A stretch of 64,000 bases of DNA, from positions 2,356,001 through 2,420,000 of the forward strand of contig NZ_CP107783.1 in the NCBI RefSeq assembly GCF_036345255.1. The letters are read 5' to 3'. Of the stretch, positions 6,930 to 22,045 are shown piece after piece. The position numbers and the translations under genes were made by a program. Below the pieces are notes generated by a model that was given only the letters and a program-made list of their open reading frames with translations, was not told where the DNA came from and did no database searches. The stretch is from Streptomyces sp. NBC_00569 (GTDB lineage: Bacteria > Actinomycetota > Actinomycetes > Streptomycetales > Streptomycetaceae). Position 1 is the stretch's first letter. Every line of letters begins with the position of its first letter.

Positions 6930-8399
6930 TCAGACCAGGGCCGGTGCGGGCTCGGTCCTGGGCTCGGGCCGCTTCAGTTCGACGCCGTCCGCGCCCTCGA
7001 AGCGGCGACCCCATCCGGTCGCCGCTGCCACGACCATGACGACGGTGAGGATGAGCGGGTAGAGCATGGCGACGAAGATCTCGGTGGTGGTCAGGGCCGG
7101 GGCGCCCTTGATGCCGGTCGTGAGCTGCGCGCCGATGAACAGGTAGGCGCTGAGGACAGGGACGATGGCGGCGATGCCCATCGCGAAGCAGTCCATAACG
7201 ACCGCCCTACGGTAGGGGTGCAGGTCGACGCGGGCGCCGATCTCGTCGGCGACGGGGCCGAAGGTGAGCATCGCGGCCGAGTTCACACCGCCGAACAGCA
7301 GGGTGGTGGCCGAGATCCCGATGCCGATCGCGAACTCCGCGCCGCGGGGGGTACGGGACAGGCGACCGTTGGTCAGCGCGCTCACCAGCCAGTCGAGGAC
7401 GCCGGCGGCGGTGAGTACGCCCATGATGCCGAAGACGGCCACCACGAGGGCGATCACGCTGAGCATGTTGGAGACGCCCTGCACGAGGAATCCGGTGGGG
7501 GCCCCGTCGGTGACGCCGATGATGCCGGAGAGGGTGAGCAGGCCCGAGGCGAGGCCGGTGATGATGCCCGTGCCCAGTCCGACCGTGACCGCCTTGAAGA
7601 TGTCACGGGTGAGCAGCGCCACGGTGAGCATGAGGGCGACGGGGATGAGCATCACCAGGGCGCGGGGGTTGGAGGCGTGCTCCAGCAGCTGCTGGGAGTG
7701 CGCGGAGCCGGTGGCGTGGCCCGAGGATCCGAGCAGGAAGAACCCTATGGCCGCGAGCCCCGCCGTGGTGAAGGCGAAGCGGGCACGGTTGCGCACGACC
7801 CCGGCGATGTCGGCGGTGCCGGCCTTGCGGCGGAACGTCTGCGTCGACGACGAGATGACGGTGGTGTCGGAGATCGGGGCCACGTTGTCGCCGAAGATCG
7901 CACCAGAGATGATCGCGGCGGCGAGGAGGGCGGGCTGGGCCCCGAGGAGCACGCCGGCCGGGTAGAAGATCGGGAACGCCGTGAACATGGTGCCGATGGA
8001 CGAGGCTGTCGACATCGAGATGATGCACACCGCGACGAACGTGAAGAGGGTGAAGGTGCCCCCGCGGACGCCGAGGAGGTCGGCGAGCCACACGAAGCCG
8101 CCCGAGACGTTGGTTGCCTTGATCAGCGCGGACATCATCCCCACGCAGAAGAGGATCATCACGATGGTCACCGCGGTGGGTGACCCGATCCCTCGTGTCA
8201 CGGCGGACCAGTAGGAGCCGTACGACTTGGCGACCAGCGCGCCGACGAGCAGGGCGACGACACCGCCTGTGGCGAGCGCCGTCATGTCGAACGCCTTGAA
8301 GACGACGAAGAAGACTACGCAGAACCCGAGGAACACGACGACTGGCACGAACGCCAGCGCCCTTCCTCCTCGGAAGTCCAAATCCTTGTCGGTGGTCAT
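6930..8399 (-). CDS. NhaC-family Na+/H+ antiporter-like transporter
   Basis: The 489-residue protein is very hydrophobic, with about 11 to 13 predicted membrane segments. It contains the NhaC-type region with IISGAIFGDNVAPISDTTVISS near residues 190 to 212, where conserved Asp residues lie in the membrane. In catabolic operons NhaC-like proteins often take up an organic substrate with Na+ rather than serving pH control, which suits its position as first gene here. I chose the ATG at 8399 because GAGAGAGGGC lies just upstream on the minus strand; a longer in-frame extension to 8465 would run through the regulatory region. It is transcribed divergently from the XRE-cupin regulator. Confidence 0.8.
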   Translation of the reverse strand: MTTDKDLDFRGGRALAFVPVVVFLGFCVVFFVVFKAFDMTALATGGVVALLVGALVAKSYGSYWSAVTRGIGSPTAVTIVMILFCVGMMSALIKATNVSGGFVWLADLLGVRGGTFTLFTFVAVCIISMSTASSIGTMFTAFPIFYPAGVLLGAQPALLAAAIISGAIFGDNVAPISDTTVISSSTQTFRRKAGTADIAGVVRNRARFAFTTAGLAAIGFFLLGSSGHATGSAHSQQLLEHASNPRALVMLIPVALMLTVALLTRDIFKAVTVGLGTGIITGLASGLLTLSGIIGVTDGAPTGFLVQGVSNMLSVIALVVAVFGIMGVLTAAGVLDWLVSALTNGRLSRTPRGAEFAIGIGISATTLLFGGVNSAAMLTFGPVADEIGARVDLHPYRRAVVMDCFAMGIAAIVPVLSAYLFIGAQLTTGIKGAPALTTTEIFVAMLYPLILTVVMVVAAATGWGRRFEGADGVELKRPEPRTEPAPALV

Positions 8400-8458
8400 G
8401 ACAGGTGCCCTCTCTCCGCGACGCTGGGGAGACCCAGGCGTGTACTTATTTACGCTGA

Positions 8459-8563
8459 TACACAAAAGTGCACGATCGCTCGCGTGTCAACTGTCGAGAC
8501 ACCAGCAAAAACGCATGGACGCAGCACATGTGCGCCATGACACTCGTACACAAGAGTGCGCAC
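8459..8563. promoter_or_regulatory. Divergent control region with a repeated operator-like motif
   Basis: The 188-bp gap between the transporter and the regulator holds two direct copies of one motif: TACACAAAAGTGCACG at 8459..8474 and TACACAAGAGTGCGCACG at 8547..8564. The second is also inside a dyad, CACTC at 8541..8545 and GAGTG at 8554..8558. One copy lies about 60 bp from the transporter start and the other 25 bp from the regulator start, as expected if the XRE-cupin protein controls both directions. No footprint is known to me. Confidence 0.45.
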
Positions 8564-8587
8564 GCCTGGGCTAAGCTGAACCCCGTG

Positions 8588-9121
8588 ATGGGAGACCAGC
8601 TACGCACCCTGCGGACGGAAGCAGGACTCAGCCTGCGCGACCTCGCGGCCCAGACCGGCCTGTCCGCGACCCTGCTCAGCCAGGTCGAGCGGGGAGTCCG
8701 GGAACCAAGCCTGAAAACCCTCCGCGCCCTGAGCACGGCGTTCGGCCCGTCGACCGCCTCGCTCTTCCACGGGAACGCCCCACTCACGGCCCATCACAGC
8801 CGCCCTCACGAGCGATCCCGCCTACTCATGCCCAAAGGCCTGGTGCAGTACGAACGCCTGACTCCGAGCAACGGCCAGCTCGAAGTGCTCCTCGGCACCC
8901 TCGAACCGGGCCAGGCCTCCGGCGACGAGCCATGGGGCCACACCGCGGTCGAGTGCGCCTACGTCATCAGCGGCACGCTTACCGTCCACCTCGCCGACCA
9001 GCGTCACGAGGTGCACGCCGGGGAGGCCCTGACCTTTGATGCCGCGCTGCCGCACCGCTACACCAACGATACAAGCGAGCCCACGAGCTACCTGGCGTCT
9101 GTGACGCCCCCCACGCCCTAA
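8588..9121 (+). CDS. XRE-family transcriptional regulator with C-terminal cupin sensor
   Basis: The 177-residue protein has an N-terminal helix-turn-helix (residues 2 to 57: LRTEAGLSLRDLAAQTGLS, then SQVERGVREPSLKTL) and a C-terminal cupin_2 barrel (about residues 95 to 172, with GHTAVECAYVISG and the second motif HAGEALTFDAALPHRY). PuuR-type regulators with this layout sense a small ligand through the cupin and control adjacent catabolic operons. I chose ATG 8588 since it opens directly on the helix-turn-helix; GTG 8585 is also possible. It is divergent from the five-gene oxidoreductase operon, which is its likely target. Immediately downstream is IS debris. Confidence 0.85.
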   Translation: MGDQLRTLRTEAGLSLRDLAAQTGLSATLLSQVERGVREPSLKTLRALSTAFGPSTASLFHGNAPLTAHHSRPHERSRLLMPKGLVQYERLTPSNGQLEVLLGTLEPGQASGDEPWGHTAVECAYVISGTLTVHLADQRHEVHAGEALTFDAALPHRYTNDTSEPTSYLASVTPPTP

Positions 9122-9179
9122 TTGACCGATTCAGATCCTGTGGGGTTCCAGAGCAGGGGCGTCGTGCTGACCTGCAGAT

Positions 9180-9467
9180 CTAGGCTGCCCTTTCGCGCTC
9201 GTTGATGAGTCCGCCGAGGACTGGACGGCGCTTCATCCTCTCGTGGGTGAGGTCGGCGGTGGGGTGGTCGGGCTGCGGCGGGTGCAGTTGTTGTCCGCGG
9301 TGCGGTCGTCGCCCGTTGTAATGCTGGGCGTACTCGTCCAGCACGGTGCGCAGGTGGCGCTGACCGAAGATGAGCATCCGGTCGGTGACCTCCGAGCGGA
9401 CGGTGTGCACGAACCGCTCCGCGTACGCATTCGCTTGCGGACAGCGCGGAGGGATCTTCACGACTGA
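9180..9467 (-). pseudogene. Integrase-core transposase, C-terminal remnant
   Basis: The minus strand encodes the last part of an rve-type transposase: KIPPRCPQANAYAERFVHTV (catalytic Glu in AYAERF), then VLDEYAQHYNGRRPHRG and the usual PVLGGLINE ending before a TAG at 9180. The first two catalytic Asp residues and everything upstream are missing. Family similarity stops abruptly near 9467, so this is a truncated element. It belongs to a subgroup different from the copies at 1566 and 18656, judging by the QANAYAERF motif. Confidence 0.7.
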
Positions 9468-9971
9468 TCCCGTCCCCCCGGGCCTCCGCACTGGCCTAGG
9501 AGATCCCAGCAGCGCCGGAGGTTCCCGGGGCACCGGTGGATGCGGAGGACCCCGAACCCGTGGCCACCGATGTCGCCGCCCCCGAACCCCATACCGCCTC
9601 GGCGGTACGGGCTCGCAGCCAAGGCCCGGATGATCAGCGTCAAGGATGGACGACCGCCCCCTCGCGCTTCATCTCCACTGCCTGCAGCATGCTCGCGCCG
9701 CTGGGCGAGGGGACCGCGCATACGCCCGGACGGAAGCCCAGAAGTCTGACGCCAACCGCTCACGCGCGATTCGCTCTCCTCACGAACGGATGACGTCCGA
9801 CCATAACTTCCGTGGTTCCAGTGGCAGTTGATGGCTGGGAAGAGTGCCGCACGATCGTCCTCACTCCGCGCTTGAACCAGGGAGATTCCCTCACGCGCCC
9901 TTCACTGGCCCTCCTCATCTGCGTGCTTCACTCTCAGCTCAAGATCAACATCCCGACCAGATGGGTAGATA
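9468..9971. other. Intergenic stretch without recognisable gene
   Basis: Several open frames exist on both strands, but none has a recognisable domain or a good ribosome-binding site. Their composition is what is expected of out-of-frame GC-rich DNA. The right part must contain the promoter of the protease gene at 9972; I cannot assign its -10 and -35 boxes with confidence. Confidence 0.4.
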
Positions 9972-11081
9972 GTGAACATACGTGCGACCCGACGAGCAAC
10001 CGCAGCCGCGCTGCTTTCCCTTGCGCTCCTCCCCGCCACCCTCGCCACCGCCACCGTTGCCCAGGCCGAGACGCCGTTACCCAAGCCGAAGCTGACCATC
10101 GGCAAGCAGACCACCGACCCGCAGAAGGTGCGGGACTACTGGACCGCCGAGCGCGTCAGCAGTGCCGTCGCCAACGAGAAGAAGGACCAGGCCGACTTCG
10201 ACAAGAAGGCAACGTCCGCGACCCAGGGCGGCGAGCGCAAGGCTGTCAAGCAGACCTTGCCGGCGCAGTCCGTGCCCGCGGTCACCGGCAAGACGCTCGC
10301 GCCTCTCGCCACCGCCTCGGTCGTGCCGGAGATGCCGCACGCCCAGCCGGTACCGTTCCCGCAGTCGCAGCCCGCCGTCCTGGTCGGGAAGATCCTGTTC
10401 ACCGCTAAGGACGGCACCACGCACGGCTGCAGCGGATCGTCCATCGTCACCGCCAACAAGAACACCGTGTGGACCGCGGGCCACTGCATCCACCCCGGTG
10501 ACGGCACGGGCGCGGAGGGCTTCTACAAGAACATCCTCTTCATCCCCGGCTACAAGAAGAACGACATGGCCCCCAAGGGCTATGACGCTCCGTGGGGCGA
10601 GTGGGCCGCCAACGCGAAGGTCGCGCCCACCGCATGGACCGCGGACGAGGACTATTTCTGGGGCGACATGGCGGCCTTCACGGTCACTCCCCCGTCCGGC
10701 TACACGAACCTGACCGACTCCGTCGGCGCCTTCGGCTACAAGTTCGGCTCGGGCCCGGACTGGCCGGACATCATCGACTCCGGCTTCCCCGGTGACGGCT
10801 ACCAGCGCACCGACATGGACGGCTACACGCAGTTCTACTGCACGGGCAACGCGGAGGACGCCACCCCGTTCTTCCCCGTGGACGACCGGCTGAAGTTCGA
10901 CTGCGACATGGGCCACGGCGCCTCGGGCGGCCCGATGTCCACCCCGGAGGGTCAGATCGTCGGCGCCAACTCGCACGGTATCGACGACGGAGCGGGCAAC
11001 ATCGTCGAACCGGTCCTGTACAGCTCGGCGCACGCCGACAACGCGATCGACGTGATCAACCGGATCGGCACGCTCAGCTAG
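9972..11081 (+). CDS. Secreted trypsin-like serine protease
   Basis: The 369-residue protein starts with a Sec signal peptide (Arg-rich start, hydrophobic core, likely cleavage after VAQA near residue 32). A roughly 100-residue prosegment rich in Lys, Asp and Gln follows. The chymotrypsin-fold domain has the catalytic triad in view: His171 in WTAGHC, Asp232 in WGDMAAF and Ser318 in GHGASGGP. Paired cysteines flank the histidine (C153 and C172) and precede the serine (C290 and C311). The protein is expected outside the cell, degrading peptides or processing other exported proteins. The start is the GTG at 9972, because an in-frame stop lies just before it; the ribosome-binding site is weak. 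A strong hairpin follows the stop. Confidence 0.88.
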   Translation: MNIRATRRATAAALLSLALLPATLATATVAQAETPLPKPKLTIGKQTTDPQKVRDYWTAERVSSAVANEKKDQADFDKKATSATQGGERKAVKQTLPAQSVPAVTGKTLAPLATASVVPEMPHAQPVPFPQSQPAVLVGKILFTAKDGTTHGCSGSSIVTANKNTVWTAGHCIHPGDGTGAEGFYKNILFIPGYKKNDMAPKGYDAPWGEWAANAKVAPTAWTADEDYFWGDMAAFTVTPPSGYTNLTDSVGAFGYKFGSGPDWPDIIDSGFPGDGYQRTDMDGYTQFYCTGNAEDATPFFPVDDRLKFDCDMGHGASGGPMSTPEGQIVGANSHGIDDGAGNIVEPVLYSSAHADNAIDVINRIGTLS

Positions 11082-11104
11082 CAGCACGCGCACGACAGCA
11101 GAAA

Positions 11105-11137
11105 GCGGGCACCAGCCGAACTCGGGCTGGTGCCCGC
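11105..11137. terminator. Bidirectional hairpin terminator
   Basis: GCGGGCACCAGCC at 11105..11117 pairs perfectly with GGCTGGTGCCCGC at 11125..11137 across a 7-base loop. The 13-bp GC-rich stem lies between two convergent genes, the protease and the small exported protein. A short CTCTTTG follows on the plus strand. Confidence 0.85.
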
Positions 11138-11151
11138 CTCTTTGACGTCAG

Positions 11152-11475
11152 TCAGTCGTCCGGGCCGCCGAAGTCGGGGTCGAGCGCGGCGCCCGTAGGC
11201 GGCGGGCCCGCGTTGGCCAGTTCCTGGCTCATGTACTCGGTCCGGATCTGGTCCGTCGACATCTTCTCCCAGCCCTCGGGAAGCTTCAGGCCAGCGACAG
11301 CCAGCGACTTCTCCCACTTCGCGACCAGAGCCTGCCGCGTGCGAGGGATCTCATCGGCCGGCGGTCTGCTGCTGACCGTCACGCCCGACGGTTCGACCAG
11401 CTCGGACACCGTCACCGCGGTTCCCACGCCCAGCAGGAAGGCTGCTGCTATGGATAACCACGCCTTACGCCCCAT
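11152..11475 (-). CDS. Small exported or membrane-anchored hypothetical protein, 107 aa
   Basis: From the ATG at 11475 the protein opens with MGRKAWLSIAAAFLLGVGTAVTV, a single hydrophobic segment that can act as an uncleaved signal anchor. A polar C-terminal part of about 75 residues follows, ending in DPDFGGPDD. I chose this start because GAAGGGAAGTGGG lies just before it and because the upstream extension to 11670 lacks sensible composition. I do not recognise a family. The gene converges on the protease and shares its terminator. The 337 bp upstream, to 11812, hold no other recognisable gene. Confidence 0.6.
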   Translation of the reverse strand: MGRKAWLSIAAAFLLGVGTAVTVSELVEPSGVTVSSRPPADEIPRTRQALVAKWEKSLAVAGLKLPEGWEKMSTDQIRTEYMSQELANAGPPPTGAALDPDFGGPDD

Positions 11476-11812
11476 CCCACTTCCCTTCTCCGTACCGATC
11501 TTGCTGTGGTGAAGGAGCGTACCGGCATCGGTCAACTGGCTTCCGAGCACGTCAGCGTCGCGAGGAAGTCGGCGACCGACCCCCGCGCACCCGTGCGGCT
11601 GTGGCACCCGGACGGTCCTCGCGATGGGCCGCACCGCTTCGCCACAGCCCTCCTCTGAGCGTTGCGTCATGACGCTTCCTCATGTGTTCACGCGACGCCG
11701 CCGCGATCGCACCACCACTTAGGATCGCTCCCGACAAAGAATCGAACGGGTCGAACAGCTCCCCTCTCTCCTATGCCGTCGGACGGCCCGTTGTCTCTGC
11801 TTCCCGATAACT

Positions 11813-12693
11813 GGCTCTAACAAAAGCTGTTGATCATGTGACTGTTGGCTTGTCGGGTCGTTGGTCTGTTCATGGGGAAACGTCAGCCGCGGCCGTGGAT
11901 CGTGTCGGACGAACTGTGGTCGCTCATCGCACCGTTACTACCCAAGCCAGGCCCGAAGCTAGTCGAGGGCCGACCGCGGGTACCGGATCGGCAAGCGTTC
12001 TGCGGGATCCTGTTCGTCCTGCACACTGGCATCCAATGGGAGTACCTGCCGCAGGAGTTGGGCTTCGGATCAGGCATGACCTGCTGGCGGCGCCTGGCTG
12101 CCTGGAACGAGGCCGGCGTGTGGGACCAGCTCCACGCGGTGCTGCTGAAGGAACTGCGGTCGAAGAACCAGCTGGACTGGTCTCGGGCGGTGATCGACTC
12201 TTCCCACGTCCGGGCGGCCCGGCGGGGCCCAAAAGCGGTCCCAGTCCGGTCGACCGCGCACAACCGGGCAGCAAGCACCATGTCATCACAGACGGGCAGG
12301 GCATCCCGCTCGCGGTGTCGCTGACCGGTGGAAACCGCAACGACGTCACGCAGTTGCTGCCCCTGCTCGACAAGATCCCTGCCATCGGCGGCGTCGTCGG
12401 CCGGCCACGGCATCGGCCCGACCTGCTCTTCGCTGACCGCGGCTACGACCACGACAAATACCGGCGTCTCGTGCGGGCGCGTGGCATCCGCCCTGTGATC
12501 GCCGAGCGCGGTCAGCCGCACGGCACCGGTCTGGGAGTCTTCCGTTGGGTCGTCGAGCGGACGATCTCCTGGCTCCACGGCTTCCGCCGCCTGCGCATCC
12601 GCTGGGAAAGACGCGACGACATCCATGAAGCCTTCCTCGGCATCGCCACCTGCCTCATCACCCACCGCCACGTTCAACGCCTTTGTTAGGGCC
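11813..12693 (+). mobile_element. IS5-family insertion sequence, about 881 bp
   Basis: The element has terminal inverted repeats: GGCTCTAACAAAAGC at the left end and the reverse complement of CTTTGTTAGGGCC at the right end, with one mismatch and a one-base length difference in the A-run. Inside is a single transposase gene in two overlapping frames. No clear target duplication was found at the ends. The element looks complete and recent compared with its neighbours. Confidence 0.75.
11872..12689 (+). CDS. IS5-family transposase made by programmed -1 frameshift
   Basis: Frame one runs from ATG 11872 to 12324 (150 residues) and carries the N-terminal DUF4096-like part: RQPRPWIVSDELWSLIAPLL, then IQWEYLPQELGFGSG, and the first catalytic Asp in RAVIDSSHVRA. 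The -1 frame continues with SGPSPVDRAQPGSKHHVI, the second Asp in LLFADRGYD, and the Glu in RWVVERTISWL, to the TAG at 12689. The shift site C CCA AAA at 12228..12234 fits the X XXY YYZ slippery heptamer exactly. The fused product would be about 272 residues with an intact DDE triad. A natural frameshift mutation is the alternative, but the heptamer and the conserved layout of IS5 relatives favour programmed shifting. Confidence 0.78.
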
Positions 12694-13124
12694 TCTAAGG
12701 CTGAGCACCGTAATAAAAGTGCTGCACCCGGCCCAACCGCCCAGGCCGCCGCGGCCACACTCAACCCGGAGGTGTATCCGGTGCCCAGGATTCGGGCGCT
12801 GCGCACTCTTGTCCCGGAACTGGATGATCCCCCTCTGACCGAGGCCCTGACGGCCGAGATCCGGTGCGCTCGGCTCGGTGAACTATCCCACCTCGCCGGC
12901 ATCCGCGCCGAGGGTCAGCTGGCCACCTGGGCTGCCCCCGTTGAGTGGAGCCCGATCTGACGGGCGCCCCGCCATCATCGCGTTCTTGGGCTCGCAAATC
13001 GGGCCGCGGACGCCTCACGTCGGCGGGGCCGCCGGTGGATACGTCCGGTAGCGGTATAGCCTGCTGGCCCCCAGTCCCCCAATTCGCCCCACACCACCAG
13101 CTGCTGGCCTTACGATCAGTGCGC
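12694..13124. other. Intergenic stretch before the SAMD9-like gene
   Basis: No supported gene. A frame from about 12780 to 12960 (containing RIRALRTLVPELDDPPLTE) has plausible protein composition but no start and no family I know. It may be a remnant cut by the IS that ends at 12693. The promoter of the gene at 13125 should lie between 12960 and 13120; no consensus is obvious. Confidence 0.4.
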
Positions 13125-16100
13125 ATGAGCACCGCCTCCGACCTTGAGGGCCCTGCCCCCCAGGAACAGCAGCCGTCCTTGCACAGCAGAGCCGACGCGA
13201 TCATTCAGAGTGAGTTGGGCACGGAGGTGTCCATCACCTACTTGCAGGAACTCAACGACGGCTACACCGACGCACTCGTCGCCCGCTGTGACTTCATGGG
13301 TGCACAACTGGGCGGCCTTGATGGGCAGTTCATCGTGAAGGTGTCCGCCGACGGCGAGGGCCGCCAGCACGAGGCCCACGAAAGGTTCAGTACGGCGCTG
13401 GGCGGGTTCGCCGAGGAGCACGTGCCAGGACTGCGACTTTCCGCCGGCGGCGACGGTCTGCGCGTCGACGTGTACGAGATCGCCGGTGGCAGTCTACGGA
13501 ACGTGGGCGCCGCCGAGATGGCCCACAGCCCGAGGCTCCTCGCGGCATGCCGTACCGTGAGCGCCGAGCTGCTGGAAGCCCAGCTGAGCGGATACACAGG
13601 CGTACGCATGCAGGCCGGGCAAACGCTGGACGCTTGGCTGGGCGAGGGCTTCCTCTGGGCCCAGCGCGGGGACGCGCTGCGGGAGACCCGTCGCATGGCC
13701 GGCATCAGTGGTAGCACGTTCGTCTTCCATGGCGAGGTATTACCCGACCCCGTCTCGGTGCTGGAGCAGGAGAACGAGCTGACCCGGCGTTCGGACCTGG
13801 TCCTGATGGGCTTCAACCACGGCGATCTCCATCTTCGCAACATTCTTCTGGACGCGACCCGGAGTTACCGGGGCTCGTACTGGCTGATTGACGTCAACTG
13901 GGGGAAGAAATCTCCCCTGTTGTATGACCAGGCATATCTGGAGACGGCCGCTCTGATCAGCATGCAGTCCCGGCTCCGTGTTCCGGTGCCGCTGGCGGTG
14001 CTCCAGGAATGCGACGGCCTCATCAGCGCCGCCGGACTCGAATGGCAGGGGCTCGTGAGCGCCGTGCGTGCCGTCCGCGACGGCACGCACGAGAGCATCA
14101 ACCGGCTCCAGCCCGGCCGTGTGGACTCACTCACCCACCAGTACCTACTGGCCCGCCTGGGCGCCGCGCTGAACTACGCGGCCAAGAACATGCCCGAAAG
14201 GGACCGCATCACCGCGTACCAACTTGCCGGCTGGATCACCCACAACCTCCTCAAGGAGTACCACCCGGAACTGCGACAGCGGGTACTCGAGCAGGCACAG
14301 TCCCCGCGCGCTCCGCGGGAAGCGGTGGTGGCCCCGACGCGAGCCGCGGATGTCGAGGCACTGGCGGAGCGGCTCGCCCCCTTCCTGGCTACGGCGCACA
14401 GCGGTTACGACCGCATCCTCATCGTCGAGGCCGGGGTCAGTCCTCCCGACCTGGCTCACCTGCTCGCGCCGCAGTGGACAGTGATCGTCGACCTCAGCCC
14501 GGAGAGTGAACGGAGTGGTCTGGCCCGCCACTTCGATCCTGAGACTGCCGAGAAGCAGACTGTGATGTTCGGCCTGCACGAGGCGCCGTCCTCGGGACGC
14601 AATTCCGTCTCCTGGATCATGGCCGGCGGTTGGGAGACCCGGGGCGAGCCAGCTCCGGCGACGTTCGTGGAGTGGCGTCGGTCCCATTTGCCGGTCGTGC
14701 GGGGCGTTCTCGACCGCTCCAGCGGGGCGAGCGTAAACCGGGCAGCGGCCGTCCTCTGCATCTCCGCGGGGAGCGATCCTGATCAGCGCTCCGAGCGGAT
14801 CATGGAGGAAGTCGAGGTTCTCTACGAACAGACGGACATTGTCCGTGTTGCCGGAGACGGCGACGAGTTCCGTGCCCTGCTCGACGCCTTCGGCAATGCG
14901 CAGGCGATGGCCCGGCCCGACCGGCTCGCCACTCTGCCGGGCCAGGACGGACCCGTCCCCTTCGAGCAGGAGCAACTCGTCCGCCTGGCAGCCGATCTGG
15001 TCGTCCTGCATTCGCGCATCCTCGTCGACGAATTGCGTGAGGAGCCGGTCGACGAGTTCTGGCGTGGCCGCCCGGCGAGCTGGGTAGACCTGGACGCCGG
15101 TCTGGACGTGCCCCGTGACACACAGCCGATGGTCCAGGGAGCCATCGGCCGAGTGCTGAGGAAGCACAGCTCAGCCACCTTCGAGATCTTCCACACCCCG
15201 GGGGCCGGAGGCACGACTCTGGCCAGGCGCATCGCCTGGGACCTGCACCGCGACCATCCCGTGGTCTTTCTGCACCACTACGGGCAGCAGACCGTGGAGC
15301 GCATCGACGACATCTATCGAGCCACCAAGAAGTCGGTCCTGGTGGTGGTGGAGAGCGCGACTCTCGGCCAGAGCGAGCGTGAGGACCTCTACTACAAACT
15401 GCACGATCGCAACACACCGGCCGTCGTGCTGTGGGTGACGCGCGGCATCCGGCCGACGGCGGATCCCGGTGCCCCGGCCTCGGGCAAGGGACGCAAGGAC
15501 GACAACAAGTTCTATCTGAAAGAGCCCCTTTCCCTGGAGGAGGCCCGGGAATTCCGGGCGATCTTCGGGGCCCGTGCCCGCTCTCCCCGGGCAAGGGCAG
15601 CTGTGGAACGCCTCATTCCCGGCTCCGCTCCTGAGCAGCATCTGTCGCCGTTCTACTTCGGCCTGTCAGCCTTCGAAGAGGACTTCGAGGGCACGCGCCG
15701 TTATGTGGACAGCCACGTCGCCCACTTCAACGACCTGCAGCGCAGCGTTGCCGGCTACCTGTCACTCGTAACCCGGTTCACTCAGAACGGGCTCCCCTAC
15801 TTCCTCGTCCGGCGCTGGCTCACCGGAGCATGGGGCGGGCAGGCCGCGTCGGCGGCGGCGTATCAGGAGGACCTCAGGTCAACTCTTGGGGAGGACCTGC
15901 GGCATCTCAGCGTCGAGAATGACGAGGAAGTGCGGATCCTGCACCCCTCGGTGGCCGAGAAGGTCCTGGAATCCGTCCTGGAGTCGGTCCGCGGGGACAG
16001 GGACTGGGAGTTCCTGCTGGCAAACACGGCCATAGAGTTCATTTCGCAGGTGTCCGGTCATCTCGGTCCCGACAACGCATGGACGAAGGAGATCCTTCAG

Positions 16101-17942
16101 AACCTCTTCATCCGGCGCGACAAGTGGTCGGGATCGACGTCGAATTCCCAGAGATTCGCCGAGTTCATCCACGAATTCGAGAACAAGGACCAGGCGTACC
16201 GGGTTCTCGAGGAGCTCACCCGCCGTTGCCCGAGCGAACCGCACTTCTGGCTGCACCTGGGGCGCTTCCACGCTTCTGTCCGTGGGCACCTGGACGGCAA
16301 GGCGGAGACGCTCATCAAGAAGGCGATCGATCTGTCCGACGAGCTGGACCCGGTTCCCTTCCACTCACTGGCGATGCTGCACCGCGAGTCGGTGCGCGGT
16401 GAACTCATCCAGCTCGGCAGCAATACCGGCCGCGAGGACGAGGCGATCACCCGGATCCGGGACCGCTACAACGAAGCGCTCCGCGTTTTCGGAAGGGCCA
16501 GGCAGCTCAACGGGATCGACGAGCACAACTACGTCACCCCCGTTCAGATGATCGTCACCGTCCTGAACCAACTCCGCCGCATCTCACACCACAACAACCT
16601 CATCGACCTGATCCGCGCCGGAGGCATGGCGGCGGACTGGGCGAGCGAGCAGCTGAGCATCGCCGAACTGCTCCTGGACGAATGCGAACTGGCCCGGCCC
16701 GACCACCAGGACAGCTCCTATCTCAGCTCCTGTAAGGTGAGTCTCGACACCCTTCATGGCGGAGTGAAAAGCTTGGTCAGCGCCTGGCGCGACCTTGTCG
16801 TCCAGTCCCGTAGCCACTCGCGTGTGGCGCTCGTCCTGGCGAGGGCCCTGCTCCGCGAACACGGCGACGACTGGCAGGAGACCTCTCCCGAGGTGTTCCG
16901 GACCGCCGTCGAGTTCTATGACGCGGCCTTCGACGAACGGGGCGATCTCTCCGAGCACGACGTGCAGTTGTGGTTCCGGTGCTATCGAAGGCTTCCGGAG
17001 TACGACGAACTCGCCGCCCTCGAACGGTTCTCGTTCATCGCCTCCTCCCGGCCCAGCCCGGTCTGCCGCTATTACCTCTACGTGCTGCGCTTCATGCGCT
17101 GGTTGAACGGGGACGAGCTGAGTCAGGACGAGGTCGAGAACCACATGGCCGAGGCAAAGGCGCTTATGCAGGGCCGCCGCAAGGCATTCAGCTACGAGTG
17201 GGTCGCGAAGGACGAGTCCGGCAAGGGTGCGGACATCGCTCCTCGGCTCGCGCACTTCTCGGAGCTCGGGGAGCGCAGGCCTGCGACCCACGACTGGGAG
17301 AACTCCGCGAACGTATGCCGGCGGGTCCGGGGCGTTGTCAGAAAGATCGAAGGTCAACAGGCAGGGTGGCTCGCTGTGGAGGACGGCTCCATCGAGGCGT
17401 TCTTCGTCCCGAGGGAGGAGTTCCTCAGGCATCGGGACATCAACAAGGTGGTCGAATTCGACCTGGGTTTCGCACAGGACGGGCTGAGGGCCTGGCGGGT
17501 GGAGGTCGCCAAGGAAGCCCGACTCCTGCGGCGCCCCGACGTGGAGATCCGAACGGTCGAGGTTGCACCCATCCCCTTGCCCTCACAGGTCAGGCCTACC
17601 CTTCCCCGAACGGGTGGCGGCATCGCTCCCGTCCCAAAGGCCATCGCCGTGGCACCCGAAATCAGGGAACAGGCTCTCGCTCTCGCCGACACGAACGAGC
17701 GCGACGCCTACCGGCTGGTAATCGGCCATCTCGTGTCGTCCGCTTCGGGCACGACGGCCGTCACCTCCCTGAACCTGGGGGTTCTTCTCCAGAAGACCTT
17801 CGGGGATGCGAACTACACCCGTGCGCTGTCGGGAACGAAGTTGCGGCCGTACGTCGAAGGCCTGGGCTTCCGCGTGACGTCAATGGCGCACGGGCAGTTC
17901 GCTGTCACATTCGACGACGCCGAAAAGGGAAGTGACCTTTGA
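13125..17942 (+). CDS. SAMD9-like P-loop NTPase with kinase-like N-terminus and LOTUS-like C-terminus, 1605 aa
   Basis: The N-terminal 270 residues look like an aminoglycoside/choline-kinase fold: glycine loop LNDGYTDALV (43 to 52), Lys72, Glu83, catalytic HGDLHLRN (232 to 239) and metal Asp256 in LIDVNW. Residues about 470 to 660 resemble the degenerate SIR2-like region of SAMD9. A signature FWRGRPASWVDL precedes the P-loop PGAGGTTLARRIAWDL (from residue 692), followed by a Walker B-like VLVVVES near 744. Residues about 1000 to 1380 are helical TPR-type repeats; about 1395 to 1470 look like the SAMD9 OB-fold. The last 75 residues resemble an OST-HTH/LOTUS winged helix. Animal SAMD9 shares the HPGCGGTTLAMHVLWDL P-loop as I recall it. 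The ATG at 13125 opens directly on the conserved part. An immune or conflict role is inferred from the family. The next gene overlaps its stop. Confidence 0.82.
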   Translation: MSTASDLEGPAPQEQQPSLHSRADAIIQSELGTEVSITYLQELNDGYTDALVARCDFMGAQLGGLDGQFIVKVSADGEGRQHEAHERFSTALGGFAEEHVPGLRLSAGGDGLRVDVYEIAGGSLRNVGAAEMAHSPRLLAACRTVSAELLEAQLSGYTGVRMQAGQTLDAWLGEGFLWAQRGDALRETRRMAGISGSTFVFHGEVLPDPVSVLEQENELTRRSDLVLMGFNHGDLHLRNILLDATRSYRGSYWLIDVNWGKKSPLLYDQAYLETAALISMQSRLRVPVPLAVLQECDGLISAAGLEWQGLVSAVRAVRDGTHESINRLQPGRVDSLTHQYLLARLGAALNYAAKNMPERDRITAYQLAGWITHNLLKEYHPELRQRVLEQAQSPRAPREAVVAPTRAADVEALAERLAPFLATAHSGYDRILIVEAGVSPPDLAHLLAPQWTVIVDLSPESERSGLARHFDPETAEKQTVMFGLHEAPSSGRNSVSWIMAGGWETRGEPAPATFVEWRRSHLPVVRGVLDRSSGASVNRAAAVLCISAGSDPDQRSERIMEEVEVLYEQTDIVRVAGDGDEFRALLDAFGNAQAMARPDRLATLPGQDGPVPFEQEQLVRLAADLVVLHSRILVDELREEPVDEFWRGRPASWVDLDAGLDVPRDTQPMVQGAIGRVLRKHSSATFEIFHTPGAGGTTLARRIAWDLHRDHPVVFLHHYGQQTVERIDDIYRATKKSVLVVVESATLGQSEREDLYYKLHDRNTPAVVLWVTRGIRPTADPGAPASGKGRKDDNKFYLKEPLSLEEAREFRAIFGARARSPRARAAVERLIPGSAPEQHLSPFYFGLSAFEEDFEGTRRYVDSHVAHFNDLQRSVAGYLSLVTRFTQNGLPYFLVRRWLTGAWGGQAASAAAYQEDLRSTLGEDLRHLSVENDEEVRILHPSVAEKVLESVLESVRGDRDWEFLLANTAIEFISQVSGHLGPDNAWTKEILQNLFIRRDKWSGSTSNSQRFAEFIHEFENKDQAYRVLEELTRRCPSEPHFWLHLGRFHASVRGHLDGKAETLIKKAIDLSDELDPVPFHSLAMLHRESVRGELIQLGSNTGREDEAITRIRDRYNEALRVFGRARQLNGIDEHNYVTPVQMIVTVLNQLRRISHHNNLIDLIRAGGMAADWASEQLSIAELLLDECELARPDHQDSSYLSSCKVSLDTLHGGVKSLVSAWRDLVVQSRSHSRVALVLARALLREHGDDWQETSPEVFRTAVEFYDAAFDERGDLSEHDVQLWFRCYRRLPEYDELAALERFSFIASSRPSPVCRYYLYVLRFMRWLNGDELSQDEVENHMAEAKALMQGRRKAFSYEWVAKDESGKGADIAPRLAHFSELGERRPATHDWENSANVCRRVRGVVRKIEGQQAGWLAVEDGSIEAFFVPREEFLRHRDINKVVEFDLGFAQDGLRAWRVEVAKEARLLRRPDVEIRTVEVAPIPLPSQVRPTLPRTGGGIAPVPKAIAVAPEIREQALALADTNERDAYRLVIGHLVSSASGTTAVTSLNLGVLLQKTFGDANYTRALSGTKLRPYVEGLGFRVTSMAHGQFAVTFDDAEKGSDL

Positions 17943-18400
17943 ATGCTTGGATGGGCACGTTGATCGCGCTCTGCGCGCTCGCCCTCTCGGCCGCCACCGC
18001 GTACATCCAGCATCGCGCCCGCAAACGCGAGACGCTCGGCGCCGACGTGACCGCCTACTTCCACCGTACTTCGGACTTCGCGAGGATAAAGCTGTTCGAT
18101 GGCACAGTCCGGCAGGCCGGGTACCACCTGGTCATCTGGAATCACGGCCCCGCGCCGGCCGAGCGGGTTCACCTGGCGGTCGCGGACATCGAGGGTGCCG
18201 CGGTAGAGCTGGCGGACTGCCCGCCGGACGAGTTTCCGCTCCAGCGGCTAGACAAGGGCGCCCGCTATCCAGTGCCGTGGATTCCGGTGTCGGACACCCA
18301 TCGCGGCGCCCGGCGCTTCAACGTCCACCTGCGGTGGCAGGACGGGAACGGAACGCAGGAGCGGGTCTTGCCGATGCGGCGGGGCCAGACAAACGTGTGA
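17939..18400 (+). CDS. Small membrane-anchored partner of the SAMD9-like gene, 153 aa
   Basis: The start is TTG at 17939, overlapping the preceding TGA (TTGA), with AAGGGAAG upstream; ATG 17951 in the same frame is an alternative. Residues about 5 to 24 (MGTLIALCALALSAATAYI) form one membrane segment followed by HRARKRE, so the rest is probably cytoplasmic by the positive-inside rule. The remaining 120 residues look like a beta-sandwich, with GYHLVIWNHGPAPAERVHL and later VHLRWQDGNG strands. I do not recognise a named family. The overlap means tight translational coupling and suggests the two proteins work together, for example by placing the large NTPase at the membrane or acting as its membrane effector. 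Confidence 0.7.
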   Translation: MNAWMGTLIALCALALSAATAYIQHRARKRETLGADVTAYFHRTSDFARIKLFDGTVRQAGYHLVIWNHGPAPAERVHLAVADIEGAAVELADCPPDEFPLQRLDKGARYPVPWIPVSDTHRGARRFNVHLRWQDGNGTQERVLPMRRGQTNV

Positions 18401-18624
18401 CGCGCCGTGGCGCGCTGGTGCGGGGCAGCTCGGGCCGGTGGACGGAGCGTCACTACCAGGCAAGCCTGCGCACGACGTGTACGGGGATTGTCCAGCCCGC
18501 GCCGGGGCCAGCACTTCCTTCGCCGGTTCGCAAGCTGTCCCCGAGCGCACTTTTGCCACGCCCATGCCAACATCACGCCCTGGCTGGCTCGGCGGCGTCC
18601 CACACAACTTGCGGGTGCCGAATA

Positions 18625-19820
18625 CCTGTACCGTTCGGAAACTCATCGCCCCTGGTCAGGCTGCGTGTCTGTACTCGTTGATCACGCCGCCGAGTATTCG
18701 GGTGCGTAGAACCCGGTGAACGGACGGAGCGGCCATGGGCGTCGGGTGCTCCAGGGCGAGGGGAGGGAGCTGTCGGCGAGCTTGGTGGGGGCGATGACCG
18801 TTGTAATGCCGGACGTACTCATCGAGGACGTGCTGGGCGTGGAACTCGTTCCAGATCAAGAGGTGGTCGAGGACCTCGCGCCGCAGCGTGCCGATGACCC
18901 GTTCGCAGTGGGCGTTCATCCGAGGGGCCCGCGGCGCGCTCCTCACAACCTGGATGTCGTCGGCCGAGAAGACCGCGTCGAAGGACTCGGTGTACTTCGC
19001 GTCCCGGTCTCGGAGCAAGAAACGCAGCGATTCTGCCCGCGTACCCAATTTGACGGCAAGGTTTCTCGCCTGTTGCACCGTCCAGGGCCCGTTGGGATGG
19101 GCAGTCACTCCCGCGATGTGTAGCCGGCGTGTGCCGTGCTCGAGGAACACGAGCGCGTACACCCGGCGCAGATCGACCAGGTCGATATGGACGAAGTCGC
19201 AGGCGATGATCCCCTCGGCTTGCGCGGTCAGGAACTCGCGCCACGTCGGGCCGCTGCGGCGTGGGGCTGGATCAATGCCCGCTGCGGTGAGGATCTCCCA
19301 GACCGTCGTCGATCCGACCGGGTGTCCGAGCCGGACGAGTTCCCCCTGGATCCGTCGGCAGCCCCAGGCCGGATTCTCCTTGGCGAGCTGCAGCACCAGA
19401 GCCTTCACCGCACTCGCGGTCGACGGTCGACCGGGCCTGCTCCGGCACTTGCTGTAGTCCCACCTCAGGGCGATCAGCCTGCGGTGCCACGCCAGCAGCG
19501 TCGTGGGCGCCACCGGGAACACCTGCGCCCACCGGCGCCGCGGAATCAGCGAGGACAGCCCTGCGAACCACAGCCGATCCGCCAGCTCGTAGCGAACCGG
19601 CTTCGTGAGCTGCCTGCGCAGCACCGCGTTCTCGTGCCGCAGCACCAGCAATTCCGCGTCCTTGGCCACGTCCCGGCGCAGCAGCACCGCCGCGGCTGCC
19701 AGCAGCTTCCGCGCCACCTGGTACACCAGTGAAACGATCACCCGGACAGGTTTCCAGCAGACAGTGATGCCGCGCCAGACCGCCTCCGAGCAGTAGCGAT
19801 GAGTTTCCGAACGGCACAGG
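18625..19820 (-). mobile_element. Integrase-type insertion sequence, about 1.2 kb, apparently intact
   Basis: The ends are 25-bp inverted repeats with a single mismatch: 18625..18649 (CCTGTACCGTTCGG at its outer end) and 19796..19820 (reverse complement beginning CCTGTGCCGTTCGG). They enclose one transposase gene on the minus strand. No target-site duplication is obvious. The element sits between the SAMD9-like operon and an IS256 fragment. The preceding span 18401..18624 contains no recognisable gene. Confidence 0.8.
18656..19741 (-). CDS. IS3/IS481-type transposase with rve integrase core, 361 aa
   Basis: The protein has the N-terminal ELLVLRHENAVLRRQL motif, the arginine-rich linker with RPGRPSTASAVKALVLQLA, and a complete rve core. 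The catalytic triad is visible as Asp in ACDFVHID, Asp in RDRDAKYTES and Glu in AHCERVIGTLRR. The tail ends RILGGVINEYRHAA. The open frame extends past the inverted repeat to 19927, but that part is outside the element; the GTG at 19741 (VIVSLVYQVARKLL) is the first start well inside it. The gene seems intact, unlike its relatives at 1566 and 20276. It cuts the DNA strand ends of its own element and joins them to a new site. Confidence 0.82.
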   Translation of the reverse strand: MIVSLVYQVARKLLAAAAVLLRRDVAKDAELLVLRHENAVLRRQLTKPVRYELADRLWFAGLSSLIPRRRWAQVFPVAPTTLLAWHRRLIALRWDYSKCRSRPGRPSTASAVKALVLQLAKENPAWGCRRIQGELVRLGHPVGSTTVWEILTAAGIDPAPRRSGPTWREFLTAQAEGIIACDFVHIDLVDLRRVYALVFLEHGTRRLHIAGVTAHPNGPWTVQQARNLAVKLGTRAESLRFLLRDRDAKYTESFDAVFSADDIQVVRSAPRAPRMNAHCERVIGTLRREVLDHLLIWNEFHAQHVLDEYVRHYNGHRPHQARRQLPPLALEHPTPMAAPSVHRVLRTRILGGVINEYRHAA

Positions 19821-19909
19821 GTAACAGCGATCTCTATGTAGCCCCTGGTCATGAGGCGGCCATCGCGCAACTTTCCGAGTAGAAGAGGCTTGTTGAGAGA
19901 GGTGACACG

Positions 19910-20044
19910 ATGGGCTTGCCCCAACATGACTTACTCCGGCTGATGGAGTCACTGCGTACGGCGGACGGAATCGAGCTGATCCGGGTTCTGGCCCAGCGGA
20001 ACCTGCAGGAGCGCATAGAGGCCGAGGCCACCGCCATGACGTAG
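19910..20044 (+). pseudogene. IS256-family (mutator) transposase, N-terminal fragment
   Basis: A 44-codon frame reads MGLPQHDLLRLMESLRTADG and then IELIRVLAQRNLQERIEAEA before a TAG. This matches the conserved first segment of IS256-type transposases of actinobacteria. The next expected block (the ERTDxRNG-like region) is absent, so only the first part of the element survived. AGAGGTGACACG just upstream retains a ribosome-binding site. Confidence 0.6.
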
Positions 20045-20109
20045 TTACGGCTGCCACCCGCGAGCCTGGACACCGGCCCTGCGCTTGCCGAGAACTTCGT
20101 CCGCGCCGG

Positions 20110-20177
20110 TCACGCGGCATGTTCGTATTCGTGGAGAATGCCGCCGAGGCGTTGGCGTTTCCGTATGTCGAGGTAGG
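20110..20177 (-). pseudogene. Tail of an integrase-type transposase
   Basis: The minus strand reads DIRKRQRLGGILHEYEHAA and a TGA at 20110. This is the typical last 20 residues of the same transposase family as the copy ending at 21368 (there IRRRDRLGGVIHEYRNAA). Only this tail is left. It faces away from that copy, so two related elements once lay in opposite directions, or one end was inverted. Confidence 0.5.
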
Positions 20178-20275
20178 CTATCTGCTCCGAGTCAGCGAGC
20201 GGGACAGTGCGCCTGCCGAGAATGCCGTCCGTGCAGCTCAGGGGTCTGTGCGGTGCTGCGACATGATGAGCACTT

Positions 20276-21368
20276 GTGTTGCTTCGTCTCGCCTACCTGA
20301 CCCTCACCAACGCGTTCGCCATGCTGCGACTGCTACCGATGAGCGACCGCGACAAGGACGCGGAGATCCTTGCCCTGCGCCACCAGATCACGGTCCCCAA
20401 ACGGCAACTCGGCACGGACTGAGTGGAGTTCACTTCGGAAGACCGAGGCTTCCTCGCCGCTCTGCTGATGCCGCTCCCGCGCCAGGCTCTGCGCCGGCTC
20501 CGGCTGCTGGTCCAACCCGACACCGTGCTGCGCTGGCACCGCAACCTGATCAAGCAGCGCCACCCCCACACCTGCCGGCCGAAGAGGCCAGGCCGCCCAC
20601 CCACCGTTCGCCCGATCCGCACGCTGATCCTGCGCCTGGTCCGGGAGAACCCCTCGTGGGGCTACCGCAGGGTGCACGGCAAATCGCCACACTCGGCATC
20701 AAGGTCGCCGCCTCCACCGTCTGAGAGATCCTCAGAGTCGAAGGCATCAACCCCGCACCCGACCGCAGCGCCACCACCTGGGCCGACTTCCTGCACTCCC
20801 AAGCCGAGGCCCTCCTGGCCTGCGACTTCATCGAAACCATCACCCTGACCGGCAAGCGCCAGTACATCCTCGCGGTCATCGAGCACACCACCCGCCGCAT
20901 CCGGATCTCGGGCACCACCGCCCAACCCACCGCACCATGCATGACCCAGGCCACCCGGAACCTGGCCATGGACCTCGAGGACACGGGAACCAGCACCATG
21001 CACCTCATCCGGTCCGGGACGCGAAATCCCCTGTTCTCTTCGACCAGATCCCGTGCGACGCCAACATCCAGACCGTGCTCACCGGCGTCCGGATACCACG
21101 CATGAACGCCATCACCGAGCGCTGAGTCCAGACCCGCCGCCACGAACTCCTGGACCACACCCTGATCTGGAACGAGCACCACCTGCGGCACGCCCTTCGC
21201 CAGTTCGAACTCCATCACAATGCTCACCGGCCCCACCAAGCGATGAACCAGGCGGCGCCACTGCGCGCGCCACCGAACCAATCACCGATCCGGACAAATG
21301 CCGGTCTCGACATACGCCGCCGAGACCGGCTCGGCGGAGTGATCCACGAGTACCGGAATGCCGCCTGA
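20276..21368 (+). pseudogene. Degenerate integrase-type transposase with several stops and frameshifts
   Basis: A GTG at 20276 opens LLRLAYLTLTNAFAMLRLL. The recognisable transposase follows: DAEILALRHQITV, then an in-frame TGA, QALRRLRLLVQPDTVLRWHR, and ENPSWGYRRVHG. Next comes a frame change to VAASTV, a stop, and ILRVEGINPAPDRS. The core gives ACDFIETITLTGKRQYIL (first Asp) but the second Asp and Glu regions are broken by further shifts and stops. The end reads RLGGVIHEYRNAA. At least two stops and two frameshifts show the gene is long dead. Confidence 0.75.
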
Positions 21369-21842
21369 CCTGGGCGGATGCGGTATTCGGCAGCCGCACT
21401 GTGGCAGACCATCGGCTTCCGGCACTCCGAGGACGACGTCTACCCGCTCGACACCCCAACCGACGCGACAAGCGCACCCGGCCGGAAACGTTTCCCCACA
21501 CGTCCGAGCCCAATCCGCGCACCCGCTCCCACCGTCGCAGCATCTCCCAACCGCGTTCAACGTCTCGATGCCGCGCACAACGGCCGGGACAGAAATCTGG
21601 CATATGGGGTCCCTGAAATCGGACATGGGGCCAAGATTTCGCATGGCCCCATAACGTCGGTTCCGGTTACGGGGACGCCGCTCCCAGCCCCGCTCCCACT
21701 GGGAGCGAGTGTGACCTGCGCGAAGAGCGCAAGCCCATACCCGTAAGACCCCCCGAACGACGGGGAGCCTGCGGTCACAAAACGGGCACGGATGCGAACG
21801 CGTGGCCAAGAAATCGAATATGGGGCCAGTGGCCCGAGTGGG
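21369..21842. other. Intergenic stretch with repeated GGGGCC boxes
   Basis: No gene supported. Between 21600 and 21655 there is ATATGGGGTCC, then ATGGGGCCA and its inverted copy TGGCCCCAT separated by 10 bases. A further ATATGGGGCCA lies near 21811. Such clustered boxes are reminiscent of IS21-type element ends, but no istA or istB sequence is present. GGGAGC/GCTCCC hairpins also occur around 21690 to 21715. Confidence 0.35.
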
Positions 21843-21885
21843 AGCAATCCGTAATGGGGACTGGGAGGGAGCGTGCTCCCTCCCA
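21843..21885 (+). repeat. Right copy of the 43-bp imperfect direct repeat (partner 541..583)
   Basis: The copy contains CAATCCGT, GGACTGGGAGGGAGCG and TGCTCCCT. Its core is the dyad AGGGAGC-GT-GCTCCCT. It lies about 90 bp beyond the 3' end of the tRNA-Pro gene. Identity with the left copy is about 36 of 43 positions. Confidence 0.6.
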
Positions 21886-21915
21886 TCGCTCCCAGGGAGC
21901 GGGCCCCGGGAACAG

Positions 21916-21942
21916 AAAAAGGGCCGTTCGAAAACGGCCCTT
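21916..21942 (-). terminator. Intrinsic terminator of tRNA-Pro
   Basis: AAGGGCCGTT at 21919..21928 pairs perfectly with AACGGCCCTT at 21933..21942 across a CGAA loop. On the minus strand the hairpin is followed by a run of T (AAAAA at 21916..21920 on the plus strand). It lies 30 bp downstream of the tRNA 3' end. Confidence 0.88.
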
Positions 21943-21971
21943 CACCTGCGACGTTCGATACGTTCGAACTG

Positions 21972-22045
<74 letters not shown>

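Follow-up and report, generated by a model that had tools for sequence, protein, structure and literature searches.

A large Streptomyces cousin of human antiviral SAMD9 with a kinase-type head in place of the RNA-cutting head

The DNA analysed here, a 64,000-nucleotide stretch of Streptomyces sp. NBC_00569 (contig NZ_CP107783.1, positions 2,356,001 to 2,420,000; hereafter the window), raises the question of what a bacterium does with a very large protein whose core resembles the animal antiviral protein SAMD9 and whose N terminus resembles a kinase. The gene lies at 13125..17942 on the forward strand, as do all features below unless stated otherwise. Its reading frame is open over 12945-17942, and aligned relatives begin at or near the ATG at 13125, giving a protein of 1605 residues (P0001). 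The nearest named relatives are from Streptomyces, and no second match was found in its own 10.3-Mb genome (G000) at E ≤ 0.001. From the N terminus, the computed parts of the protein are an APH/choline-kinase-fold head, a SIR2-like domain, a STAND nucleoside triphosphatase (NTPase) lacking the P-loop Lys, a TPR array, an OB fold and a LOTUS-like tail. The gene is thus a large bacterial cousin of human antiviral SAMD9 that bears a kinase-type head in place of the RNA-cutting head. We estimate a probability of about 0.5 that it encodes a STAND-type immune switch, with the N-terminal kinase as effector and the TPR-OB-LOTUS half as sensor. An original prediction from the nucleotide sequence had proposed the SAMD9-type core, the kinase fold, the absence of AlbA and the LOTUS-like tail, all of which are backed here by profile and structure comparison; the motifs it named were also located (PGAGGTTLARRIAWDL from residue 692, FWRGRPASW at 645-653, HGDLH at 232-236, and D256).

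The core follows the layout of the SAMD9 family. A SIR2-like domain (residues 408-613, 14346..14963) precedes the STAND NTPase module (about residues 649-957, 15069..15995) and the FWRGRPASW box (residues 645-653, 15057..15083). The P-loop, HTPGAGGTT at residues 690-698 (15192..15218), is STAND-like: Gly takes the place of the usual Lys, and the His upstream of it is conserved. These features were followed through 76 core sequences, a set that includes the window protein and some near-copies (the cores of L018 and P0005 are identical) and from which P0022 and P0027 were dropped as fragments. H690, G695 and the upstream G648 are present in 76/76 and W653 in 75/76; none has Lys at 696, the Walker A position being occupied by Gly in 74, Ala in 2 and Lys in 0. 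The TPR-like helical array that follows (about residues 959-1348, 15999..17168; Pfam TPR matches below cut-off) leads to an OB fold (residues 1400-1461, 17322..17507) with five strands in the AlphaFold2 (AF2) model, in agreement with the OB-like part earlier placed near residue 1400, and alignment here extends up to the C-terminal end of SAMD9.

Profile searches relate this sequence to SAMD9 above other families. A single-sequence search of the PDB with the window protein returned human SAMD9 weakly (E 0.064), and a profile of 28 kinase-headed sequences placed human SAMD9 first at E 1.6e-21, the other matches up to E 1 being a designed TPR protein (9e-4) and FKBP1A (0.08). With 11 AlbA-headed relatives added to the profile, SAMD9 reached E 4.6e-35, and 6/6 matches at E ≤ 0.01 were SAMD9. 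The likeness had been set up as a structural check, and it held: Foldseek with the predicted core gave SAMD9 structures as best matches at 8.8e-29 and a first unrelated chain at 1.1e-6. From the SIR2-like domain to the OB fold, 878 residues aligned to SAMD9 413-1589, reaching window residue 1462. The overall root-mean-square deviation of this alignment is 31.8, so the likeness holds domain by domain, and the VIA rows of the fold search for the core mostly end at about residue 1213, before the tail.

Against Pfam nSTAND_NTPase5 (PF25199), the NTPase scores 31.2 bits over residues 644-773 in the Pfam scan, below the cut-off of 34, and 36.3 bits, above it, in the genome search. Taken as a possible means of counting the family, this domain was matched in 17/396 genomes of the phylum, own included. 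The same genome holds a second match over the cut-off (L008, G000:C1:9252473-9252799) in a 1335-residue frame, and the profile found no SAMD9-type core in the piece fetched around it. Among the fetched pieces of the 17 loci concerned (16 other genomes plus L008), one matched the SAMD9-core profile, L089, at a very weak 13.3 bits.

The head spans residues 12-382 (13158..14270) and combines a kinase fold with the Lys, HGDxxxxN and Asp residues of the APH-like kinase superfamily. Within it, Pfam TCAD9 (PF19974) matches residues 99-275 at 43.6 bits, above the cut-off of 40. Residue counts were taken over 57 kinase-headed rows, leaving out L035, a row of AlbA type. The putative ATP-binding K72 (13338..13340) is conserved in 53/57, with 2 Arg and 2 gaps; the HGDLH catalytic loop (residues 232-236, 13818..13832) and the following N239 show H232, D234 and N239 in 57/57, and the putative metal-binding D256 (13890..13892) is likewise invariant (57/57). 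The complete APH-type motif set proposed at the outset therefore stands for K72, HGDLH and D256 and fails for E83, which is ruled out as the conserved kinase Glu: Glu occupies that position in just 22/57, and the conserved acidic position is 81 (15 Glu, 37 Gln, 5 other or gap), where the window protein has Gln. Both residues lie on a predicted helix, 81-91. A Gln at this position makes reduced or altered kinase activity possible. The best kinase matches of the head model are mostly small-molecule enzymes (glucosamine, methylthioribose, choline and aminoglycoside kinases), together with the lanthipeptide-pathway kinase 9dk1. A Pfam scan of the 1605-residue protein listed nothing AlbA-like, in keeping with the earlier statement to that effect, and the AlbA domain was rejected as a candidate here.

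Beyond the OB fold the window protein continues for 143 residues, of which 1511-1596 (17655..17912) are modelled as helices with a beta wing, a LOTUS (OST-HTH)-like winged helix with a predicted local distance difference test score of 75-92 over the block. Pfam assigned no OST-HTH (PF12872) to the window's own tail; 2/16 tails scanned alone did match that family. Among relatives, P0028 (25.4) and P0029 (27.4) score over the cut-off of 23.8, and P0030 (18.4) and L029 (17.1) below it. These four proteins contain two LOTUS-like copies, which align with each other by hhalign at a probability of 98.7, the second being the Pfam-positive one; actinobacterial tails align to the first copy at 85 and directly to the second at a weak 33. 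Against a profile of the LOTUS-like copies, the window tail scored 5.9 bits, the best of 920 shuffled tails 5.1, and 32/42 tails outside the training set of this profile scored above 5.1. A PDB search with the tail profile returned weak unrelated matches and no LOTUS chain. By model and profile, then, the window tail may be called LOTUS-like, short of LOTUS proper; the winged helix and the OST-HTH matches of two relatives support what had been proposed, though the window tail gives no such match of its own.

How the head and tail vary over the shared core is informative. By our own profiles, 57 of the 76 sequences (window included) are kinase-headed, 17 are AlbA-headed and 2 have neither; the latter (L043:9380-13042 and L049:8624-12397) possibly represent a third head type. 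No more than 7 residues follow the OB fold in 17/17 AlbA-headed, 11/57 kinase-headed and both of the other proteins (2/2), as in SAMD9, whereas 46 kinase-headed proteins extend 114-510 residues past it; L050, one of the 11, is uninformative about tails, since its frame breaks off within the core. Possession of the tail sets one clade apart (46/76 sequences), and where tested this tail is LOTUS-like. Two congeners carry kinase-headed SAMD9-type proteins of about 1980-2000 residues (L002:1264-7218 and L003:1252-7260), whose tails run on for about 500 residues past the OB fold and match nothing clearly in Pfam. Another relative, in Streptomyces sp. WAC08241 (L026:10134-14908), is split across several frames and thus looks like a decayed copy or poor assembly.

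Core trees require two changes between kinase and AlbA heads. L041, a kinase-headed sequence from Chloroflexota, pairs with the AlbA-headed L039 within a joint clade, with support for joint clade and pair of 98 and 85 on 58 rows (18 near-copies or fragments left out), 100 and 97 on 30 rows, and 100/100 and 99/97 on 24 rows. Constraining all kinase-headed rows to one clade gave an approximately unbiased p value of 0.022 with 24 rows and 0.075 with 30, so a swap of kinase and AlbA heads on one core is likely, not certain. TCAD9-like heads also sit on other scaffolds: at the N terminus of an AAA/NB-ARC and TPR protein in L088 (51.1 bits), at the C terminus of an NB-ARC and TPR protein in L083 (22.1 bits, under the cut-off of 40), and on alphaproteobacterial TPR proteins, over the cut-off in 2/5 scanned. 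Most of L052-L085 (Alphaproteobacteria, many of them Ruegeria and Roseibium) have such heads on TPR proteins of about 830-1150 residues; weak TolB_N matches occur in 3/5 of those scanned, and L055 has two TCAD9-like-headed proteins.

The basic architecture is known, since the main text of Mekhedov, Makarova and Koonin (2017, PMC5445408) reports many bacterial SAMD9 members, found particularly in actinomycetes, with an N-terminal kinase and no AlbA_2, as in the window protein. The kinase fusion, originally taken as unusual, thus was described in 2017, and it characterizes 57/76 of the sequences classified here. The same text gives the family P-loop signature as GGT/S with Lys missing and an upstream His, which the window P-loop fits. 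It describes the head as a Ser/Thr protein kinase, whereas the fold of the window head is closest to small-molecule APH/choline-type kinases; the terms LOTUS and OST-HTH do not occur in that main text. Animal SAMD9 and SAMD9L share with the window protein the core from SIR2-like domain to OB fold, the GGT P-loop and the upstream His. Unlike them, the window protein has a kinase instead of the AlbA_2 tRNase head, no SAM domain by Pfam scan, and 143 residues past the OB fold where SAMD9 stops; because AlbA_2 is lost in some members according to PMC5445408, its absence is compatible with membership of the wider family. In AVAST type 5 (Avs5, SIR2-STAND) the SIR2 domain comes first, whereas here the kinase precedes it, and the window protein has additional OB and LOTUS-like parts and no PADLOC match. 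The name TCAD9 itself refers to NTP-dependent conflict systems; in PMC10910872 it is tied by a figure legend to vWA-MoxR-VMAP systems, and a panel there on CARF/SAVED-linked proteins also bears it, whereas the window head sits on a SAMD9 core. Passages of PMC7159879 describe rare active APH-type kinases among conflict-system effectors, and both sources would fit an effector role of the TCAD9-like head. Among the matches listed in the open literature, we recognised none in which bacterial SAMD9 proteins had been studied by experiment. New here are the APH-type fold and TCAD9 identity of the head, the Glu-to-Gln change at 81, the tail clade, the two-gene unit described below and, probably, the exchange of kinase and AlbA heads.

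The gene belongs to a 5.5-kb two-gene unit (13041..18527) that is found again in Streptomyces sp. CB01635 (L015, 9917-15411; 94.8% identical), with flanks that show no match in the DNA compared, and is probably mobile. Its G+C content is 64-67%; most of the remaining window has 68-75%, but 33-36 kb also has 65-67%. The second gene (17939..18400) shares 4 bases with the main gene at its stop and encodes a 153-residue protein whose one hydrophobic helix lies at the N terminus (hydropathy 1.87 at residue 5). Upstream lies a transposase in two overlapping open reading frames (ORFs) (11845..12689), which we take to be IS5-like, and downstream an insertion sequence on the reverse strand (18625..19820), presumably IS3-like, with an integrase-type transposase in ORF 18656-19927 and 25-bp inverted ends (18625-18649 and 19796-19820, 96%). 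The wider region 8000-22000 has lower G+C (64-67%), contains at least two insertion sequences and ends near tRNA-Pro (21971-22045); ORF 9972-11081 is, by our own reading, presumably secreted-protease-like. An att site at tRNA-Pro was rejected, as 15-30 bases of the tRNA 3′ end have no second copy in the window. Carriage of close relatives by plasmids or phages was rejected as well, after searches of plasmid and phage collections gave no match.

How might such a protein work? At rest, the C-terminal TPR-OB-LOTUS half would hold the protein closed until its TPR, OB and LOTUS parts bind a trigger, most likely an RNA or ribonucleoprotein that comes from a phage or is altered by infection, and the protein opens. 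Nucleotide binding (fast hydrolysis being improbable without the Walker A Lys) could then let the NTPase and SIR2-like units oligomerise, gathering and activating the N-terminal APH-type kinases, placed where SAMD9 has its tRNase. These would phosphorylate a host or phage target (a small molecule, RNA-linked or a protein), arresting growth or phage production in an abortive form of defence, and the co-travelling 153-residue membrane protein would most likely be its dedicated partner, whether as target, as anchor or as inhibitor. We favour the kinase as executing domain rather than sensor because the head probably exchanges with the AlbA head, a tRNase reported to be the effector in animals (PMC13245274, PMC12331169); of the earlier proposal that the kinase "senses or modifies", the second half is therefore preferred. 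In PMC13245274, human SAMD9 and SAMD9L are said to restrict poxviruses and to have gain-of-function disease mutations, their exact triggers being unknown. The fuller version, an RNA-sensing SAMD9-type switch that uses OB and LOTUS parts to assemble APH-fold kinases and kills or protects by phosphorylation, is offered as a tentative proposal.

A defence role draws some support from neighbouring genes. We listed 190 flanking ORFs of relatives and scanned 71 of them, from 20 non-actinobacterial loci, as a set with PADLOC 2.0; one of the 71 is shown singly, and 30 more were scanned singly. Type I restriction at L034, LmuB (Lamassu) at L042 and an Avs2 piece at L044 adjoin relatives. The set scan also matched PDC-S02, PycC, LmuA and a specificity subunit without locus assignment, and matches to mad3, CARF and RtcR, which may be general domains, were left out of the defence count. 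Several points weigh on the other side. Clear defence genes are tied to 3/20 scanned loci, a count without a background control, and of these L034 and L042 are kinase-headed, while the L044 ORF starts inside the NTPase, leaving its head outside the ORF. The window protein matched no PADLOC family at E up to 1, nor did the 153-residue protein have a match, and that gene was the sole actinobacterial neighbour in the scan. To these we add the lack of plasmid or phage matches, the possibly weakened or altered kinase activity with Gln81 and the one-clade constraint that 30 rows do not reject at 0.075. Immune function is suggested by domain make-up and context, and RNA sensing by domain resemblance. 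The anti-phage role originally put forward is accordingly best described as plausible, supported by the neighbouring defence genes and not by a PADLOC match. In the parts of the literature compared, phosphorylation was not met as effector chemistry for SAMD9 or Avs proteins.

The 153-residue gene invites another division of labour, in which the kinase is a regulator that keeps the switch off by autophosphorylation or partner phosphorylation and damage to the cell is done by the membrane protein or by the SIR2-like domain. In 295 genomes of the genus this gene occurs in two, own included, and both copies adjoin a SAMD9-type core (the second genome may be L015's own); its 4-base overlap with the main gene points the same way, as does the Gln at residue 81 in 37/57 kinase-headed sequences. 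Different small genes lie upstream of the core on the opposite strand at four loci of one family (L016, L017, L018, L026) and seven of another (L019, L020, L021, L022, L025, L028, L030), and the small proteins tested, from L016, L019 and L020, each have one N-terminal hydrophobic helix. Yet these families are mutually unlike by tblastn, the other compared loci have no match to them, and small membrane-helix genes are no more frequent beside the core than elsewhere in the same loci (7/42 vs 37/248, p 0.82), in a crude count whose ORF picks missed several known ones. The homology-based small-gene neighbours alone stand, an overall enrichment of small membrane proteins beside the core family is not supported, and we consider a regulatory kinase unlikely.

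That the protein acts as a hub for stress or developmental signals in filamentous actinobacteria, instead of in phage defence, is similarly doubtful. Many relatives do come from Streptomyces and other actinobacteria, and the main text of PMC5445408 suggests signal transduction for bacterial members. A core developmental gene would be expected to be widespread in the genus, however, and this one is rare and patchy (3/199 relative genomes, own included), recurs at unrelated sites, and has relatives in Proteobacteria, Chloroflexota, Firmicutes and Planctomycetota, a few of which adjoin defence genes. It is very improbable that the head serves to detoxify an antibiotic, or another small molecule, which the STAND part merely senses. 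The best kinase matches of the head model do act mostly on small molecules, but the same core bears an AlbA head elsewhere. Small free-standing kinases carry out such detoxification and need no 1200-residue switch.

In the window protein, the Lys-less NTPase and the OB fold of SAMD9 go with a different head, which makes it possible to ask which of the parts is the sensor and which the executor. If the kinase is the effector, APH-type phosphorylation would join the weapons of STAND immunity, and the obscure Pfam family TCAD9 would be a portable kinase module. Should the RNA-sensing kinase switch proposed above prove true, an ancient chassis would have carried either of two interchangeable weapons, a kinase head or an anticodon-nuclease head, and the form retained in animals would be the one with the nuclease.
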